DNA of 35,225 nucleotides, from assembly GCA_001768615.1 (NCBI GenBank), contig MELE01000189.1:1-35225 (forward strand), written 5' to 3'. Shown in pieces: positions 1,401 through 25,611 of this stretch. The notes under the pieces are model-generated. The model saw nothing but the letters and a program-made list of their open reading frames with translations. It searched no databases and was not told the DNA's origin. Source of the stretch: Acidobacteria bacterium RIFCSPLOWO2_12_FULL_67_14b. GTDB lineage: Bacteria > Acidobacteriota > Vicinamibacteria > Vicinamibacterales > UBA2999. The translations under genes and the position numbers were made by a program. The number at the start of each line of letters is the position of its first letter. The stretch's first letter is position 1.

Positions 1401-2572
1401 TGCTGTCCGTCGTCGTCAGAGGATCCGTCGGCGGGTGCATCAGGTGCATCAGGTGCAGCAGGTGCATCGGGTGCGTCAGGCCCGACTTCGCGGCCGGAGG
1501 CCGCTTCCGCCTCCGCTGAAGCTTCGGCGGACAGGTCGGCGGGGTCTCGCCGCAGCTCGCCAGAGTCTTCGCGAGCGGAGGCGGATGCTTCGGGTACCGC
1601 CAATGCTTCGGGCTCGTCAAAGCCATCGGACTCGTCGAATGCATCCGATTCATCGGTCCCGTCAAAGCCCCCTGGCGCATCTGGCGCATCTGGCGCACCC
1701 GGCGCACCTGATGCACCTGATGGACCCGGCGCACCGAAGGCACCCGAGGCACCTGAGGCACCTGGCACACCCGTTCCCCCGCGTCGGCCCCGCCGCCGGC
1801 GGCGCCGCTTACGGCTGCCATCGCCGGGTTGACCCTGCCCTTGTGACTGGCCGCCGCCCTGCGCCGGCTGATTGCCGGTCGGCACGTAGCCCTCGCCCGA
1901 GTCACCCGGCGTGCTGACGGCCGGCGCCTCGTCCTCGTCGTCGCGGCGATCGGGGCCGCGCACGGCCTCGGGCCGGTACTGCACGACGCCTTCGAGGGCG
2001 CGGACGCGGCGCTCGCTGAAGTCGAGGCGGCTCGACAGCGACTCGACCCGCATGCGCAGGTTCTGCGCCTCGATGCCCATGCGCGTGGTTTCGAGCACGA
2101 GGTTGTGGAGCACCTCGTAGTACAGCGCGTTCCACTCGGCGCGTGACTTGTCGAACTCGATCTTGCGCCGGGCCTCCCGCTTGAGGAGCGTGACGTTGAA
2201 CTCCGCCTGCTTGTGAATCACGTGCAGCAGCGGGTTGGGGTTGAACATCAGCTTCAGCAGCGGGTTGAAGATCTTGCGCATCAGGCGCAGGAAGCCGCGG
2301 TGCGTGGCGAAGATGTCGGCCTCGTCCGCCGTGTAGGGCGGCGTGATCGCCGGCGGTTCGGTCTGCACCGCCGGCCGGCTCTTGCGGAACTGCTCGAGCA
2401 GGTCCGACCGGAGGTTCTTCGGCTCGAGGAACTTCTCGAGCCGGACCGACGCCAGCTCGCGGATCTGCTCTTCGGTGTAGTCGGCGCCGCGCTTCTCGAG
2501 AATACGCTGGCGGATCTGCTTCATGATCTGCTCGACGTCGACCGACTCGGAACGAATGGTGAACTCGCTCAT
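1397..2572 (-). CDS. Unknown protein of glycosyltransferase cluster with coiled coil and low-complexity tail
   Basis: 391 aa, function not recognised. The N-terminal 195 residues look folded: an amphipathic start (VDVEQIMKQIRQRILEKRG), a helical middle with NPLLKLMFNPNPLLHVIHKQ near 103-121, and a probable coiled coil at about 150-194. I recall similar 'VEQIMKQIRxRI' proteins beside glycosyltransferases, which suggests a scaffold or partner role, but that is inference. Residues about 200-391 are disordered: an acidic/Gln-Gly stretch, a basic patch (RKRRRRRRGRRGG, about 254-266), then Gly/Ala/Pro/Asp tripeptides (GAS, GAP, DAP) and acidic repeats, all encoded by nine-base tandem repeats. It lies 12 bases after the DUF362 gene and overlaps the glycosyltransferase by four bases, so all three are probably one transcript. 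Confidence 0.8.
   Translation of the reverse strand: MSEFTIRSESVDVEQIMKQIRQRILEKRGADYTEEQIRELASVRLEKFLEPKNLRSDLLEQFRKSRPAVQTEPPAITPPYTADEADIFATHRGFLRLMRKIFNPLLKLMFNPNPLLHVIHKQAEFNVTLLKREARRKIEFDKSRAEWNALYYEVLHNLVLETTRMGIEAQNLRMRVESLSSRLDFSERRVRALEGVVQYRPEAVRGPDRRDDEDEAPAVSTPGDSGEGYVPTGNQPAQGGGQSQGQGQPGDGSRKRRRRRRGRRGGTGVPGASGASGAFGAPGPSGASGAPGAPDAPDAPGGFDGTDESDAFDESDGFDEPEALAVPEASASAREDSGELRRDPADLSAEASAEAEAASGREVGPDAPDAPAAPDAPDAPADGSSDDDGQQ
1426..1770. repeat. Nine-base coding repeats (GGTGCATCA / TGGCGCATC type)
   Basis: Two arrays of degenerate nine-base units, near 1433-1480 and 1675-1770, encode Gly-Ala-Ser, Gly-Ala-Pro and Asp-Ala-Pro tripeptides on the minus strand. The unit core GGYGCAYCN resembles the AGGCACCNN nonamers at 8202-8237. 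The period is a multiple of three, so unit gain or loss keeps frame. Confidence 0.8.
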
Positions 2573-21907: not shown

Positions 21908-23497
21908 ATGGCCGTCCACGAATCGGACGTCTGCGTGATCGGCGGCGGCATCACCGCCGCGATGCTGATCGAACGGCTGGCCGAGCTCAGGCCCGGCCTG
22001 CGCATCACCGCGGTCGAAGCGGGACGCGCGATCTTCGATCGCGAGAACCGCCTCGACTACCACAAGCGGGCCCTCGCCTACGGCGAGCACCCCTGGCACG
22101 GCGACTTCATCGAGGATCAACAGGCCCGGGGGATGATCTCGATGACGATGGCGGTGGGAGGGCAGGCGCTGCATTGGGGCGGCGCATGCAACCGCTTCTC
22201 GCAGGAGGATCTGCGGCTGAAGTCGCTCTACGGCCTGGCGGACGACTGGCCGATCGAGTGGGACGAGCTCGAACGGCACTACGTCGACGCCGAGCGCCGG
22301 TTGAACGTGGCCGGCGATCCCAGCCCGTATCCTGAAGACCGCCGATCGGCGGCCTACCCGCAGCGCGCGATGCCGCTGTCGTACAACCTGCAGATCCTCA
22401 GGCGCTGGGCGGAACAGAGCGGCCTCAAGTTCTCGCCACTGCCGATGTCGCGCAACCTGACGGCGCCGTTCGGCGGCCGCGGCGCGTGCGGCCTGTACGA
22501 CACGTGCGGCGACGTGTGTCCGACCGGCGCGCGCTACTCGCCGGACTTCACCTACCAGCAGCTGATCGCGGCGAAGAAGGTGACGCTGCACGATCGCATG
22601 CTGGTGCGCAAGCTCGTGCTCGACGAGGGGCGCAACACCATCGCGGCCGCGCACGGCTGGCATCAGGATCGTCCCGACGAGGTCACCGAGTATCGGGCGA
22701 AGACCTTCGTGCTGGCGTCGGGGCAGTGCTGGAGCCCGCACCTGCTGCTGTTGTCGGCCAGCGCGCGGTTCCCCAACGGGCTGGCGAATGGTTCGGGCCT
22801 GGTCGGGCGCTACATGAACGGCCACAAGTTCATCTCCGCGCAGGCGGCGATCGACGAGGAGACGTTCCCCGGCCAGAACATGACGCACAGCCTGATTTCG
22901 CGTGAGTACTTCCGGTGCGGCGCGGACAAGGGCTTTGTCCGGCACGACACGCGCGTCTGGGAAAGCGCGGCCGGCAAGGAGCCGCGGCTGCGCAGCCCGG
23001 AGGGCCGAGTGCTGCTGGGCGACGAGCTGCTCGCCGACTGGCGCGGCCGCGCGATGAAAGGCAGCTCCGTACGGTTGCGCACTTACTATGATTCGCACCC
23101 GTCGATCGACAGCCGGTTGACGCTGGATCAAACGTCGAAGAACCGCTACGGCGATCCGATGCCGAGGATCGATCGCCGGCTCGACGCGGCCGCCGAGGCG
23201 CGCGAAGCGGCGACGCTGGCGCATTGCACCGCCGTGTTCGAGCGGATGGCGCGGGCCAGCAACGGCCGGCTCACCGGGAAGCCGTCGGTGTCGACCTACT
23301 GGGATCACCCTGCGGGCGGGTGCCGCATGGGGACGGATCCGTCAACGAGCGTCGTCGACAGCTTCGGCCGCACGCACGATCACGAGAACCTCTTCGTGAT
23401 CGGTGCGCCGACCCTGCCGACGGGTGGATGCACGAATGGGACCCTGACGTTCGTTGCCGTCTCGCTCCGATCGGCCGCGAAGATCGCCGAGGGTTAA
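21908..23497 (+). CDS. GMC-family FAD oxidoreductase (gluconate 2-dehydrogenase large-subunit type)
   Basis: 529 aa. The FAD-binding start is DVCVIGGGITAAMLIERL; the flavin-attachment region is MAVGGQALHWGGACNRFS. A cysteine group, ACGLYDTCGDVCPTG (about 195-205), resembles the metal- or cluster-binding insert of membrane gluconate/sorbitol dehydrogenases. The C-terminal catalytic block has YWDHPAGGCRMGTDPSTSVV and ENLFVIGAPTLPTGGCTNGT. It oxidises a sugar or alcohol outside the cytoplasm after co-export with the Tat subunit; the substrate is unknown. Its TAA shares two bases with the inverted repeat that bounds the RAYT element, so that element lies flush against this gene. Confidence 0.88.
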   Translation: MAVHESDVCVIGGGITAAMLIERLAELRPGLRITAVEAGRAIFDRENRLDYHKRALAYGEHPWHGDFIEDQQARGMISMTMAVGGQALHWGGACNRFSQEDLRLKSLYGLADDWPIEWDELERHYVDAERRLNVAGDPSPYPEDRRSAAYPQRAMPLSYNLQILRRWAEQSGLKFSPLPMSRNLTAPFGGRGACGLYDTCGDVCPTGARYSPDFTYQQLIAAKKVTLHDRMLVRKLVLDEGRNTIAAAHGWHQDRPDEVTEYRAKTFVLASGQCWSPHLLLLSASARFPNGLANGSGLVGRYMNGHKFISAQAAIDEETFPGQNMTHSLISREYFRCGADKGFVRHDTRVWESAAGKEPRLRSPEGRVLLGDELLADWRGRAMKGSSVRLRTYYDSHPSIDSRLTLDQTSKNRYGDPMPRIDRRLDAAAEAREAATLAHCTAVFERMARASNGRLTGKPSVSTYWDHPAGGCRMGTDPSTSVVDSFGRTHDHENLFVIGAPTLPTGGCTNGTLTFVAVSLRSAAKIAEG

Positions 23498-23515
23498 AGG
23501 GGTCGGGGATCTTTT
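23496..23515. repeat. Left copy of the RAYT-flanking inverted repeat
   Basis: AAAGGGGTCGGGGATCTTTT, the exact complement of 24267-24286. The first two bases belong to the TAA stop of the GMC gene. Confidence 0.9.
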
Positions 23516-23547
23516 GTTTCAAGAAGGGTGCCGAGGTTCAAGGGGTC

Positions 23548-24216
23548 TCAGGCTTCCGCTTTGCCTGCCTGCCGGCCGATCGGCCGCAGCGATAGTCCAC
23601 AGAACGGTGCCACGGCCCGCTGCCACGCGGGTTCGCCGATTGGGTGGTTGCGCCGCACCATTTGCCTCATGGCGGCGAGCTCCGCTACCGTTTCAGGTCT
23701 ATTGACAATCTCAATCCAATTAGGGGGTCGCAGAATTGGCCATGGGGCAAGCGAAATCGTGTCGCAGAATTCGCGTGGCCCGGCCAGGCTCGACCACGGC
23801 CACTGCTCAGCTTTGTCGGCGAGTTGCGCTCGGAGCGGATTGCGCTCGACGTATCGACAGACGCGAACGAGGTAGCCATCCGTTTGCACTGGCAGCGCGA
23901 TGAACCGGCCCTGATACAGAGAGCCGGTTCCCCTGGTCCCGTGTGCGGCGTGCCACCGCTGGGCGTGTGTGCCAGTGATCCAGTGCATCAATCGCGAAAG
24001 ATCTTCGATACGATCGCAGATAACGACGAAGTGCCAGTGATTGGGCATCACGCAGTACGCAATTATTTGGACGCTGGAGCGGGACAGTCCTTCACGAACC
24101 ACCTTGAGAAACGCCGCGTAGTCAGTGGGTCCCTCGAAGATCGTGGCGCGGCGCACCGCGCGGTTGATCACATGGAACACTGTTCCTTGTAGATTGTGAC
24201 GAAGGCGCCTGGGCAT
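23548..24216 (-). CDS. REP-associated tyrosine transposase (Y1_Tnp, IS200-like)
   Basis: 222 aa, usual RAYT length. The HUH nuclease motif is NHWHFVV (His60, His62). The catalytic tyrosine is expected at Tyr115 in YLVRVCRYVERNPLRAQL. The N-terminus (RRLRHNLQGTVFHVINRAVRR) and GSLYQGRFIA are typical. RAYTs cut and join single-stranded hairpin DNA and are linked to the spread of REP palindromes; most are single-copy domesticated genes. The tail (LRPIGRQAGK) is a worn form of the usual RPxGRPxK end. A GGAGAAGAAG site precedes the ATG. The gene looks intact. Confidence 0.93.
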   Translation of the reverse strand: MPRRLRHNLQGTVFHVINRAVRRATIFEGPTDYAAFLKVVREGLSRSSVQIIAYCVMPNHWHFVVICDRIEDLSRLMHWITGTHAQRWHAAHGTRGTGSLYQGRFIALPVQTDGYLVRVCRYVERNPLRAQLADKAEQWPWSSLAGPREFCDTISLAPWPILRPPNWIEIVNRPETVAELAAMRQMVRRNHPIGEPAWQRAVAPFCGLSLRPIGRQAGKAEA

Positions 24217-24230
24217 CTTCTTCTCCGGAT

Positions 24231-24848
24231 TTGCGAGTTACTATTCGCAAAGTGGATGCCAGCCAGAAAAGATCCCCGACCCCTTTACTCGGCGTCCTCA
24301 TCTCGGGCCGCGGGTCGAACCTCAAAGCCATCATCGACGCCATCGGCGACGGCCGTCTCGACGCGCGGATCGCGGTGGTCATCTCGAACCGGGCCGACGC
24401 GCCCGGGCTCGAGCACGCGCGCGCGGCCGGCATCGAGACCCTCGTGATCAGCCATCGCGCCCACGCGGCGCGCGAAGACTACGATCGCGCGCTGGTGGCG
24501 GAGCTGCAGAAGCGCGGCGTCGCCCTCGTCTGCCTGGCCGGCTTCATGCGCGTGCTCAGCCCGGCGTTCGTCGACGCCTATCCGAACCGCATCCTCAACA
24601 TCCACCCCTCGCTGCTGCCCAAGTACCCGGGCCTCCACCCGCAGCAACAGGCGCTGGACGACGGCGCCACCGTGAGCGGCGCCACTGTTCATTTTGTGAA
24701 CAAGGACCTCGACGCCGGCCCCGTTGTCCTCCAGCGGGAGGTGCCGGTCCTGCCGGGCGATACCGCCGACACCCTGGCCGCACGGATCCTCCAGGTCGAG
24801 CACACCCTGTATCCGGAGGCCATTGCCGCCGTGATCAACCAGGGCTGA
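24231..24848 (+). CDS. purN: Phosphoribosylglycinamide formyltransferase 1
   Basis: 205 aa as drawn, with a non-ATG start. Transfers formyl from 10-formyl-THF to GAR. The family begins at LGVLISGRGSNLKAIIDAI; catalysis uses ILNIHPSLLPKYPGLHPQQQ (Asn, His) and the Asp in NKDLDAGPVVLQ. No ATG lies upstream in frame. The possible starts are TTG at 24231 and GTG at 24252, both inside the RAYT element. The residues SQKRSPTPLL just before the conserved part are translated from its right inverted repeat. GTG 24252 follows a TTTGCGA/TCGCAAA hairpin and a TACTAT box (24239-24244) at a spacing that fits a leaderless message; no ribosome binding site is visible for either start. Confidence 0.93.
   Translation: MRVTIRKVDASQKRSPTPLLGVLISGRGSNLKAIIDAIGDGRLDARIAVVISNRADAPGLEHARAAGIETLVISHRAHAAREDYDRALVAELQKRGVALVCLAGFMRVLSPAFVDAYPNRILNIHPSLLPKYPGLHPQQQALDDGATVSGATVHFVNKDLDAGPVVLQREVPVLPGDTADTLAARILQVEHTLYPEAIAAVINQG
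24239..24244 (+). promoter_or_regulatory. Possible outward -10 box for purN
   Basis: TACTAT lies in the loop of the hairpin TTTGCGA (24230-24236) / TCGCAAA (24245-24251). Transcription would start at about 24251-24252, the GTG candidate of purN. The -35 region is poor. Confidence 0.3.
24267..24286. repeat. Right copy of the RAYT-flanking inverted repeat (within purN frame)
   Basis: AAAAGATCCCCGACCCCTTT, the exact complement of 23496-23515. It is read in the purN frame as part of SQKRSPTPLL. Confidence 0.9.
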
Positions 24849-24894
24849 CGCGCACACGCCAACCACGTGGAACCCCTCGACATGCGCCGCGCGG

Positions 24895-24963
24895 GCGAGC
24901 GTCGGCGCGGCTGAGCGCGTCCATGTCGTGCTGAACTGGTTCGACGAGTTGAAGCGCAAGGTG
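24895..24963 (+). pseudogene. C-terminal scrap of a kinase/TolB-repeat protein
   Basis: About 23 codons read ERVHVVLNWFDELKRKV, the characteristic last strand and helix of the WD40/TolB-repeat proteins abundant in Acidobacteriota. No upstream part of such a gene is present; purN ends 47 bases earlier. The frame has no stop here and continues by chance into the parE frame. The rest of the stretch 24849-25042 holds nothing recognisable except the parDE promoter region. Confidence 0.65.
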
Positions 24964-25007
24964 CGGGGTGGTAGAAGTCAGGAAAGGCAGAAGGGTTGCG
25001 GCAAGCC

Positions 25008-25036
25008 TTGCCAAATTTTGCCAAATCGCCTACGGT
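25008..25036 (+). promoter_or_regulatory. Putative parDE promoter
   Basis: TTGCCA (25008-25013), 17 bases, TACGGT (25031-25036). The direct repeat TTGCCAAAT/TTGCCAAAT overlaps the -35 box and may be the ParD operator. Predicted transcription start is near 25043, where a GTG in the parD frame lies. Confidence 0.4.
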
Positions 25037-25051
25037 GGGATCGTGAGCACC

Positions 25052-25282
25052 ATGAATGTCTCCCTGCCCGAGTCCCTCAAGGACTTCGTCGACGAGCAGG
25101 TCACCCGGCGCGGCTACGGCACCAGCAGCGAGTACGTGCGCGAACTGATCCGCAGGGATTCGGATCGGCTACATCTGCGAGGCCTGCTGCTGGAGGGGGC
25201 CGCCTCTGCTGCGGCTGGACCCGCTGGCACCGGCTATTTCGCCGGCCTGCGCAAGCGCGTCCGGCGACGCGCCCGGCGGTGA
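25052..25282 (+). CDS. parD: ParD-type ribbon-helix-helix antitoxin
   Basis: 76 aa. It starts MNVSLPESLKDFVDEQVTRR and continues GYGTSSEYVRELIRRDSDRL, the standard ParD DNA-binding fold, followed by a toxin-binding tail. ParD neutralises ParE and represses its own operon. ATG 25052 is taken; the in-frame GTG at 25043 is possible. The stop overlaps the toxin start by four bases (GTGA). Confidence 0.92.
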   Translation: MNVSLPESLKDFVDEQVTRRGYGTSSEYVRELIRRDSDRLHLRGLLLEGAASAAAGPAGTGYFAGLRKRVRRRARR

Positions 25283-25611
25283 AACCCAGGCGCGTCAAGC
25301 CAGTTTTGCCGCGTAAGCCGGCCAACCGAGATGTTGATGAGGCCATCGCGCACTACTTGAGCGAGGGCGCGCAGCAGGCTGCGCTGGGTTTCATCGATGC
25401 ATTGGAGCAGGCCTACGTCCACATCGGACGCCACCCTGCCACCGGCTCTTCCCGCTACGCCCACGAGTTGAACCTTCCCGGACTGCAGTTCTGGCCGCTG
25501 GCGCGCTACCCGCATCTGGTGTTCTACATCGAGCGCGGAGATCACATCGATGTCTGGCGTGTGTTGCACGGGCAGCGCGACATCCCGGCGTGGATGCGCG
25601 AGCCCGATTGA
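25279..25611 (+). CDS. parE: ParE/RelE-superfamily toxin
   Basis: 110 aa from GTG at 25279. The RelE/ParE core is seen in DVDEAIAHYLSEGAQQAALG, FIDALEQAYVHIGRHPATGS, LPGLQFWPLARYPHLVFYIE and DHIDVWRVLHGQRDIPAWM. ParE members poison DNA gyrase. The start is fixed by the four-base overlap with parD; the open frame extends much further upstream but that part is a shadow of parD. Confidence 0.92.
   Translation: MKPRRVKPVLPRKPANRDVDEAIAHYLSEGAQQAALGFIDALEQAYVHIGRHPATGSSRYAHELNLPGLQFWPLARYPHLVFYIERGDHIDVWRVLHGQRDIPAWMREPD

Follow-up and report, generated by a model that had tools for sequence, protein, structure and literature searches.

A TIRYT-like transposase element that probably supplies the start region of purN, and its recurrence upstream of purN in an acidobacterial order

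Introduction

Genes like those of the REP-associated tyrosine transposases (RAYTs; REP, repetitive extragenic palindrome) persist in few copies per genome, as host genes do, and are puzzling in that, to our knowledge, no benefit of theirs is known. Here we analyse such a gene in Acidobacteria bacterium RIFCSPLOWO2_12_FULL_67_14b, on contig MELE01000189.1 (assembly GCA_001768615.1), where it lies inside an element at the junction of a GMC oxidoreductase gene and the purine gene purN. The whole stretch of 35,225 nucleotides (nt) that was analysed is called the window.

The literature knows such elements as TIRYTs or TIRtrons (PMC3733652, PMC6006769), and a sharply defined acidobacterial group of TIRYTs is named in the text of Di Nocera et al. 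2013 (PMC3733652), as far as that text was available. Like the TIRYTs/TIRtrons described there, the window element has a Y1 transposase gene flanked by terminal inverted repeats that carry a GGGG motif, here a perfect 21-nt pair. The TIRYT motif GGGGWSAS, which occurs in some terminal repeats and is not a defining one, differs from the window repeat GGGGTCGG in one letter, A being G. A repeat that also occurs elsewhere in the genome is a property of some TIRYTs only; the window genome has one further pair, on contig C194. Likened by motifs alone, the window transposase has the HUH and tyrosine motifs in common with TnpA-Y1 subclass 2.1, whose members have a C-terminal HTH domain, as outlined in the main text of Quentin et al. 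2018 (PMC6006769).

The GTAG REPs, which according to the text of PMC3733652 provide the TAG stop codon of flanking open reading frames (ORFs) or lie within ORFs, resemble the window element in that a host gene receives its stop codon or some of its coding residues from a repeat. Unlike them, one element here appears to give the stop on one side and the start region on the other, and it does so recurrently at the same gene. The text of PMC3733652, as far as it was available, mentions no repeat that supplies a start codon, no link to purN and no sigma54 promoter. The term 'start codon' is absent from its main text, and the word 'promoter' from the main text of PMC6006769.

The element and the start of purN

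The genes of the window run from purM through a hypothetical gene and the GMC oxidoreductase gene to the element and purN. The inverted repeat has its arms at 23495-23515 and 24267-24287, which are 100% complementary and form the sole perfect pair of that length found within 23000-25200. A first-pass annotation, made from the letters of the window, had described a perfect repeat of 20 nt at this place; the perfection holds, and the repeat is one base longer. It had also placed the left copy on the stop codon of the GMC oxidoreductase gene, and indeed the outer bases of the left arm are the TAA stop (23495-23497) of that gene (21908-23497, plus strand). The arms enclose, as had been proposed, a complete tyrosine transposase gene, a 222-residue ORF on the minus strand (23548-24216) which is divergent from purN and matches Y1_Tnp (PF01797; E 9.1e-15, 55.3 bits vs a cut-off of 23). 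Alignment finds both the HUH motif (NHWH) and the catalytic tyrosine motif (YVERNP) in it. As its score against the NCBIfam equivalog REP_Tyr_transpos (NF047646) is 70.6 bits, under the curated cut-off of 80, we call the gene RAYT-like. A Shine-Dalgarno-like CCGGAG of this gene was recognized by eye at 24223-24228 on the minus strand.

The right arm, which is in frame with purN on the plus strand, reads KRSPTPL. Position 3 of the PurN profile TIGR00639 falls on residue 20 of the purN ORF when this is started at TTG, so that the conserved core of PurN, delimited by ORF and family profile (24288-24848 on the plus strand, from its first residue to the stop), begins at the right-arm boundary. The only in-frame ATG, GTG or TTG codons before the core are TTG (24231-24233) and GTG (24252-24254), both on the plus strand and inside the element, and the right arm must therefore be translated in PurN. 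On this point the first-pass annotation, which had the right copy translated at the front of a PurN without an ATG, was correct. We infer that GTG 24252 is the most likely start codon, with TTG 24231 as the alternative.

These data suggest, with high probability, that a TIRYT-like element occupies the precise boundary between two closely spaced genes and supplies the start region of purN. The outer bases of its left repeat serve as the stop codon of the upstream gene, and its right repeat with the stretch just inside makes up the 5' end of purN, which would begin at GTG 24252 after the loss of its own start, one that in RAYT-free relatives often overlaps the upstream stop.

The further copies of the 20-nt repeat that the first-pass annotation had in mind amount to one more pair, since with up to 3 mismatches the 20-mer occurs in its own genome at this locus and at C194:3957-4077. 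The latter is a 121-bp miniature element (L005) with both arms identical to the window 20-mer, and at its outer end it shares bases with the stop codon of a 322-residue ORF on the minus strand. With both catalytic motifs intact and a miniature element with identical arms in the genome, recent activity of the window element is likely, and the earlier description of this copy as domesticated, in the sense of inactive, finds no support.

Conservation within the genus

Nine genomes of the genus were compared, seven of which have purN at E <= 1e-40. In the genome of another species, G008, this unit recurs at the corresponding junction. Its two arms match those of the window genome (G000) in every base, and G008 also keeps the Shine-Dalgarno-like motif, the palindrome described below and GTG 24252. 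Identity between G000 and G008 is 81.4% for the last 764 nt of the GMC gene, 67.3% for the RAYT gene and 74.2% for the purN core; in the pairwise alignment the block at 24230-24289 is identical in 60 of 60 nt and the left arm in 21 of 21. The ratio of nonsynonymous to synonymous change (dN/dS) of the RAYT gene is 0.15 for this pair, at nearly saturated synonymous sites.

In the five other purN-bearing genomes G001, G003, G004, G006 and G007, no RAYT gene was found within 1400 nt upstream of purN, and the residues before the shared PurN core differ from those of the window, which G008 shares. By eye, purN starts within the GMC stop in two of these genomes, G001 (TGATG) and G007 (GTGA). The comparison with relatives thus upholds the earlier claim that the element supplies the purN start region, and we consider this claim highly probable on the sequences compared.

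Two other explanations were also considered. A chance repeat was rejected, as the repeat is perfect over 21 nt and kept in another species. The window is contig C189 of a fragmented assembly (258 contigs, 92% complete), which would leave room for an artefact of assembly or binning that joins the repeat to purN; as the same junctions occur in the G008 assembly of another species, such an artefact was rejected as extremely improbable.

Recurrence upstream of purN in the order

To the first-pass annotation, which did not touch on it, can be added that the arrangement recurs in other genera and families of the order, Vicinamibacterales. We collected 134 purN loci, at 133 distinct places, from 132 of the 162 genomes of the order, and RAYT genes upstream of purN were sought with a profile of the adjacent RAYTs. 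They were found in 27 of the 133 distinct loci, including one marginal match (L136; 50 residues, E 5e-4) and one truncated copy (L021). The hits number 28, since L020 and L177 represent the same place, and every one of them is divergent to purN. The loci with a RAYT number 7 of 38 in family f1, 5 of 9 in f15, 4 of 26 in f5 and 11 of 11 in f10, with none among the remaining 49; that the arrangement is an oddity of one genus was accordingly rejected. Matches at E <= 1e-30 number 77 in the 162 genomes, 21 of them at purN. With some thousands of genes per genome, far fewer than one would be expected there by chance; because of shared ancestry, the 21 cannot be counted as independent of each other.

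Of the 27 RAYT loci, 15 have a detected exact inverted repeat pair of at least 12 nt, and for 13 of them any choice of ATG, GTG or TTG start leaves the repeat within the translated part of PurN. In three loci (L019, L024 and L030) the repeat gives the ATG itself (AAATGACTCCCGACCCC, protein MTPDP). By eye, the left arm contains or abuts a stop codon of the upstream gene in seven of the 15 (L007, L008, L019, L030, L052, L121 and L125). The purN start overlaps the stop of an upstream ORF of at least 80 codons in 57 of the 106 loci without a RAYT vs 2 of the 27 with one. Within one genome the repeat arms of the adjacent loci compared have 0-3 mismatches, and between genera the sequences differ, a pattern that fits concerted change or fresh ends.

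Two loci showed further features of the repeats. At L052 (G067) the inverted repeat extends past the element to 44 nt with 3 mismatches, and its outer part, by eye, repeats the upstream gene's 3' end in mirror image on the side of purN, as though fold-back repair had copied it. At L061 (G033), the one non-adjacent RAYT of the order with an identified neighbour, a RAYT of the same clade away from purN gives the ATG (1436-1438, minus strand) and the residues MTSDP to a divergent MeaB gene; start donation is hence not limited to purN.

Elsewhere in the class, where 25 genomes have purN, none of the 18 purN loci fetched has a RAYT. In the rest of the phylum, RAYT matches at E <= 1e-40 come from 4 of 396 genomes, and none of the five loci concerned has purN within about 1.5 kb. 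Among the best 80 of 101 RAYT relatives from genome records, many of them with short flanks, purN was found in the flank of two, both from Acidobacteria and corresponding to the G008 and G084 loci, which are among the 27 above.

A sigma54-type element reading towards the transposase gene

Upstream of the window RAYT gene, and reading towards it, lies a -24/-12 element of the sigma54 type, TGGCATCCACTTTGCG, on the minus strand as the complement of 24246-24261. It scores 15.5 of 16.25, a value reached by none of 100 shuffled sequences, and has GG-N10-GC within a TGGCAY-N5-TTGC frame. A score of at least 14.5 within 200 nt upstream of the purN core occurs in 23 of the 27 RAYT loci vs 0 of the 106 without a RAYT, the loci under this value being L021, L100 (14.0), L135 and L136. 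When the stretches upstream of the RAYT starts were scored, 22 of 26 adjacent RAYTs, 14 of 35 non-adjacent RAYTs of the order (from 56 matches) and 0 of 42 RAYTs from other phyla (43 of 80 loci sampled) reached it, as did 0.85% of 4000 random 130-nt stretches; the five loci of the phylum outside the order have no element at 14.5. G000 carries rpoN, as do 40 of 43 genomes of the family, and sigma54 RNA polymerase would probably transcribe the RAYT gene from this element inside the purN start region, judging by the match to the consensus.

Predicted sigma54 regulons have been found to include transposases of COG3666, COG3464 and COG3385, in the text of PMC12316311 that was available, and the terms IS200 and REP-associated are absent from its main text. 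Predicted sigma54 control of a transposase gene is what these cases and the window RAYT have in common. The three COGs are presumably other transposase families.

Elements of the sigma54 type were also seen upstream of distant Y1 lineages away from purN (among them L058, L075, L037, L067, L071 and L073), so the trait may belong to the host group and not to one element family. Several related RAYTs among L180-L222, from Planctomycetota, Nitrospirota and others, have by eye TTGAC-like and TATAC-like boxes that lie between repeat and ATG in place of a sigma54-type element.

The -12 part of the window element is overlapped by the palindrome TTTGCGA-N8-TCGCAAA at 24230-24251, which among the nine genus genomes occurs (with up to 3 mismatches) in the window and G008 only. 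It can fold into a hairpin with a 7-bp stem and an 8-nt loop; its DNA energy is -6.1 kcal/mol (z -3.88), a value equalled by 3 of 200 shuffles. TACTAT (24239-24244, plus strand) lies in its loop region, and the first-pass annotation had read it as a promoter box for a possible leaderless purN mRNA starting at GTG 24252. This start from a new sigma70-type promoter would be compatible with an element that supplies the purN start, and it draws on the seven bases between the end of TACTAT and the G of GTG and on the presence of TACTAT in G008. However, consensus scanning of 23400-24400 gave no sigma70-type promoter, a terminator scan of the same stretch also gave nothing, and the palindrome that holds TACTAT overlaps a promoter-like element which reads the opposite way. 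The hairpin of the earlier reading stands, and TACTAT as a -10 box is unproven because of this overlap; we regard the leaderless start as doubtful.

Probable moves, retention and decay of the transposase genes

The RAYT tree, a quick one under a simple model, has 85 rows, with 29 of the 80 loci from other phyla included and five divergent or broken adjacent copies (L021, L100, L101, L165 and L169) left out. The window and G008 copies pair in it, next to copies of the genus that are not adjacent to purN. For f10 it has seven adjacent copies, which group in a single clade, and seven non-adjacent ones, which lie outside that clade. The label of purN adjacency changes at least seven times, at least three of these changes being forced by well-supported branches. 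From the f10 clade and the forced changes, both moves and long retention seem to have occurred, in a tree that does not separate gain from loss.

The changes of label bear on an alternative in which the junction of purM or the GMC gene with purN is a preferred target, hit independently so that each lineage has its own copy, with no long-term maintenance. Beyond the forced changes, this alternative is favoured by the repeat sequences, which differ between genera, and by the presence of such repeats at other gene ends, as at the MeaB start in L061 and the stop of the 322-residue ORF at C194. It has to face the RAYT at every f10 purN locus, the single clade of the adjacent f10 copies (four divergent f10 copies being outside the tree) and an orientation that is constant in 28 hits. 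We take repeated insertion to be a serious contender with chances slightly short of balanced, and maintenance at purN over long times within f10 to be very probable.

The catalytic residues are kept in 21 of 25 aligned adjacent RAYTs. The losses are all in f10, where L100, L101 and L169 are devoid of both motifs and L165 of the tyrosine, with frames still open over 187-242 residues. Pairwise dN/dS among L100, L101 and L169 is 0.57-0.73 vs 0.22-0.27 for purN, which fits decay or weak constraint. The other adjacent pairs give 0.11-0.19 in six cases and 0.29 for L053/L110, two pairs being saturated, and two RAYT copies (G060 and G070) have an internal stop.

On these figures hangs also the proposal that the RAYT at purN has been domesticated under sigma54 to regulate purN, or nitrogen or purine supply, and is no longer mainly mobile. 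The open frames of the four inactivated copies, the low dN/dS of the six pairs and the sigma54-type element in 23 of 27 loci could be read in this way. The same element is however carried by 14 of the 35 non-adjacent RAYTs of the order at 14.5 or more and is therefore not a purN trait, the catalytically dead copies have the decay-like ratios, the pair L053/L110 is less constrained with two more pairs saturated, and internal stops and the truncated L021 occur. We consider a regulatory role unlikely.

Weighing the proposed reading

Several observations weigh against a TIRYT-like element that supplies the purN start and a sigma54-controlled transposase gene. No repeat pair of at least 12 nt was found in 12 of the 27 RAYT loci, and in L052 and L135, two of the 15 with a pair, purN has a start on the downstream side of the repeat. 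Conservation of the 60-nt block could come from the RAYT's own promoter, the palindrome and the repeat, with no function for purN. The sigma54 score has hand-set weights based on the consensus, and 14.5 was picked as its cut after the scores had been seen. At low values the score lacks specificity: a cut of 12 also admits 17.9% of random stretches, 12 of the 26 controls on the reverse strand and 8 of the 42 RAYTs from other phyla. Finally, purN is without a RAYT at 106 of the 133 loci, from which it follows that the unit can be absent.

This last point weakens the idea of start-codon capture, by which precise loss of the element would harm the host, as the element carries the start of a purine gene, and retention at purN might thereby be helped. 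We put capture forward only tentatively as the reason for retention. A broader form of it, equally speculative, would have capture as a way of life: elements would enter the stop/start junction of purM (or the GMC gene) and purN, supply both stop and start, and thereafter have no clean loss, so that in some families a sigma54-controlled transposase would become fixed in the purine operon and outlive its catalytic residues. The reading that we favour overall, a TIRYT-like element at the gene junction that supplies the start region of purN, remains highly probable on the comparisons made here.

Other features of the window

At the 3' side of purN, positions 24968-25611 hold a gene for a ParE-type toxin (PF05016, E 1.1e-10), preceded by a small ORF that resembles a ParD antitoxin by eye and matches no Pfam family at 1e-3.

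Significance

The sequences compared establish the position of the element, its translated repeat, the conserved block and the order-wide, always divergent recurrence. The literature searched, with subscription journals and preprints mostly outside its coverage, contained no report of a RAYT-purN pairing, of a conserved host gene whose start comes from a repeat or of sigma54-type RAYT promoters. Both the divergent RAYT upstream of purN across an order, with its translated repeat, and the sigma54-type element towards the RAYT hence look new.

For annotation, these loci are a warning: in such bacteria PurN can open with residues encoded by a transposon repeat, and starts are easily miscalled. 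The sigma54-type promoter, if it is one, would offer a first handle on the timing of transposase production. The 27 loci with a RAYT directly upstream of purN, many of them with a start that the repeat appears to write, may provide a concrete and testable reason for the retention of these genes.

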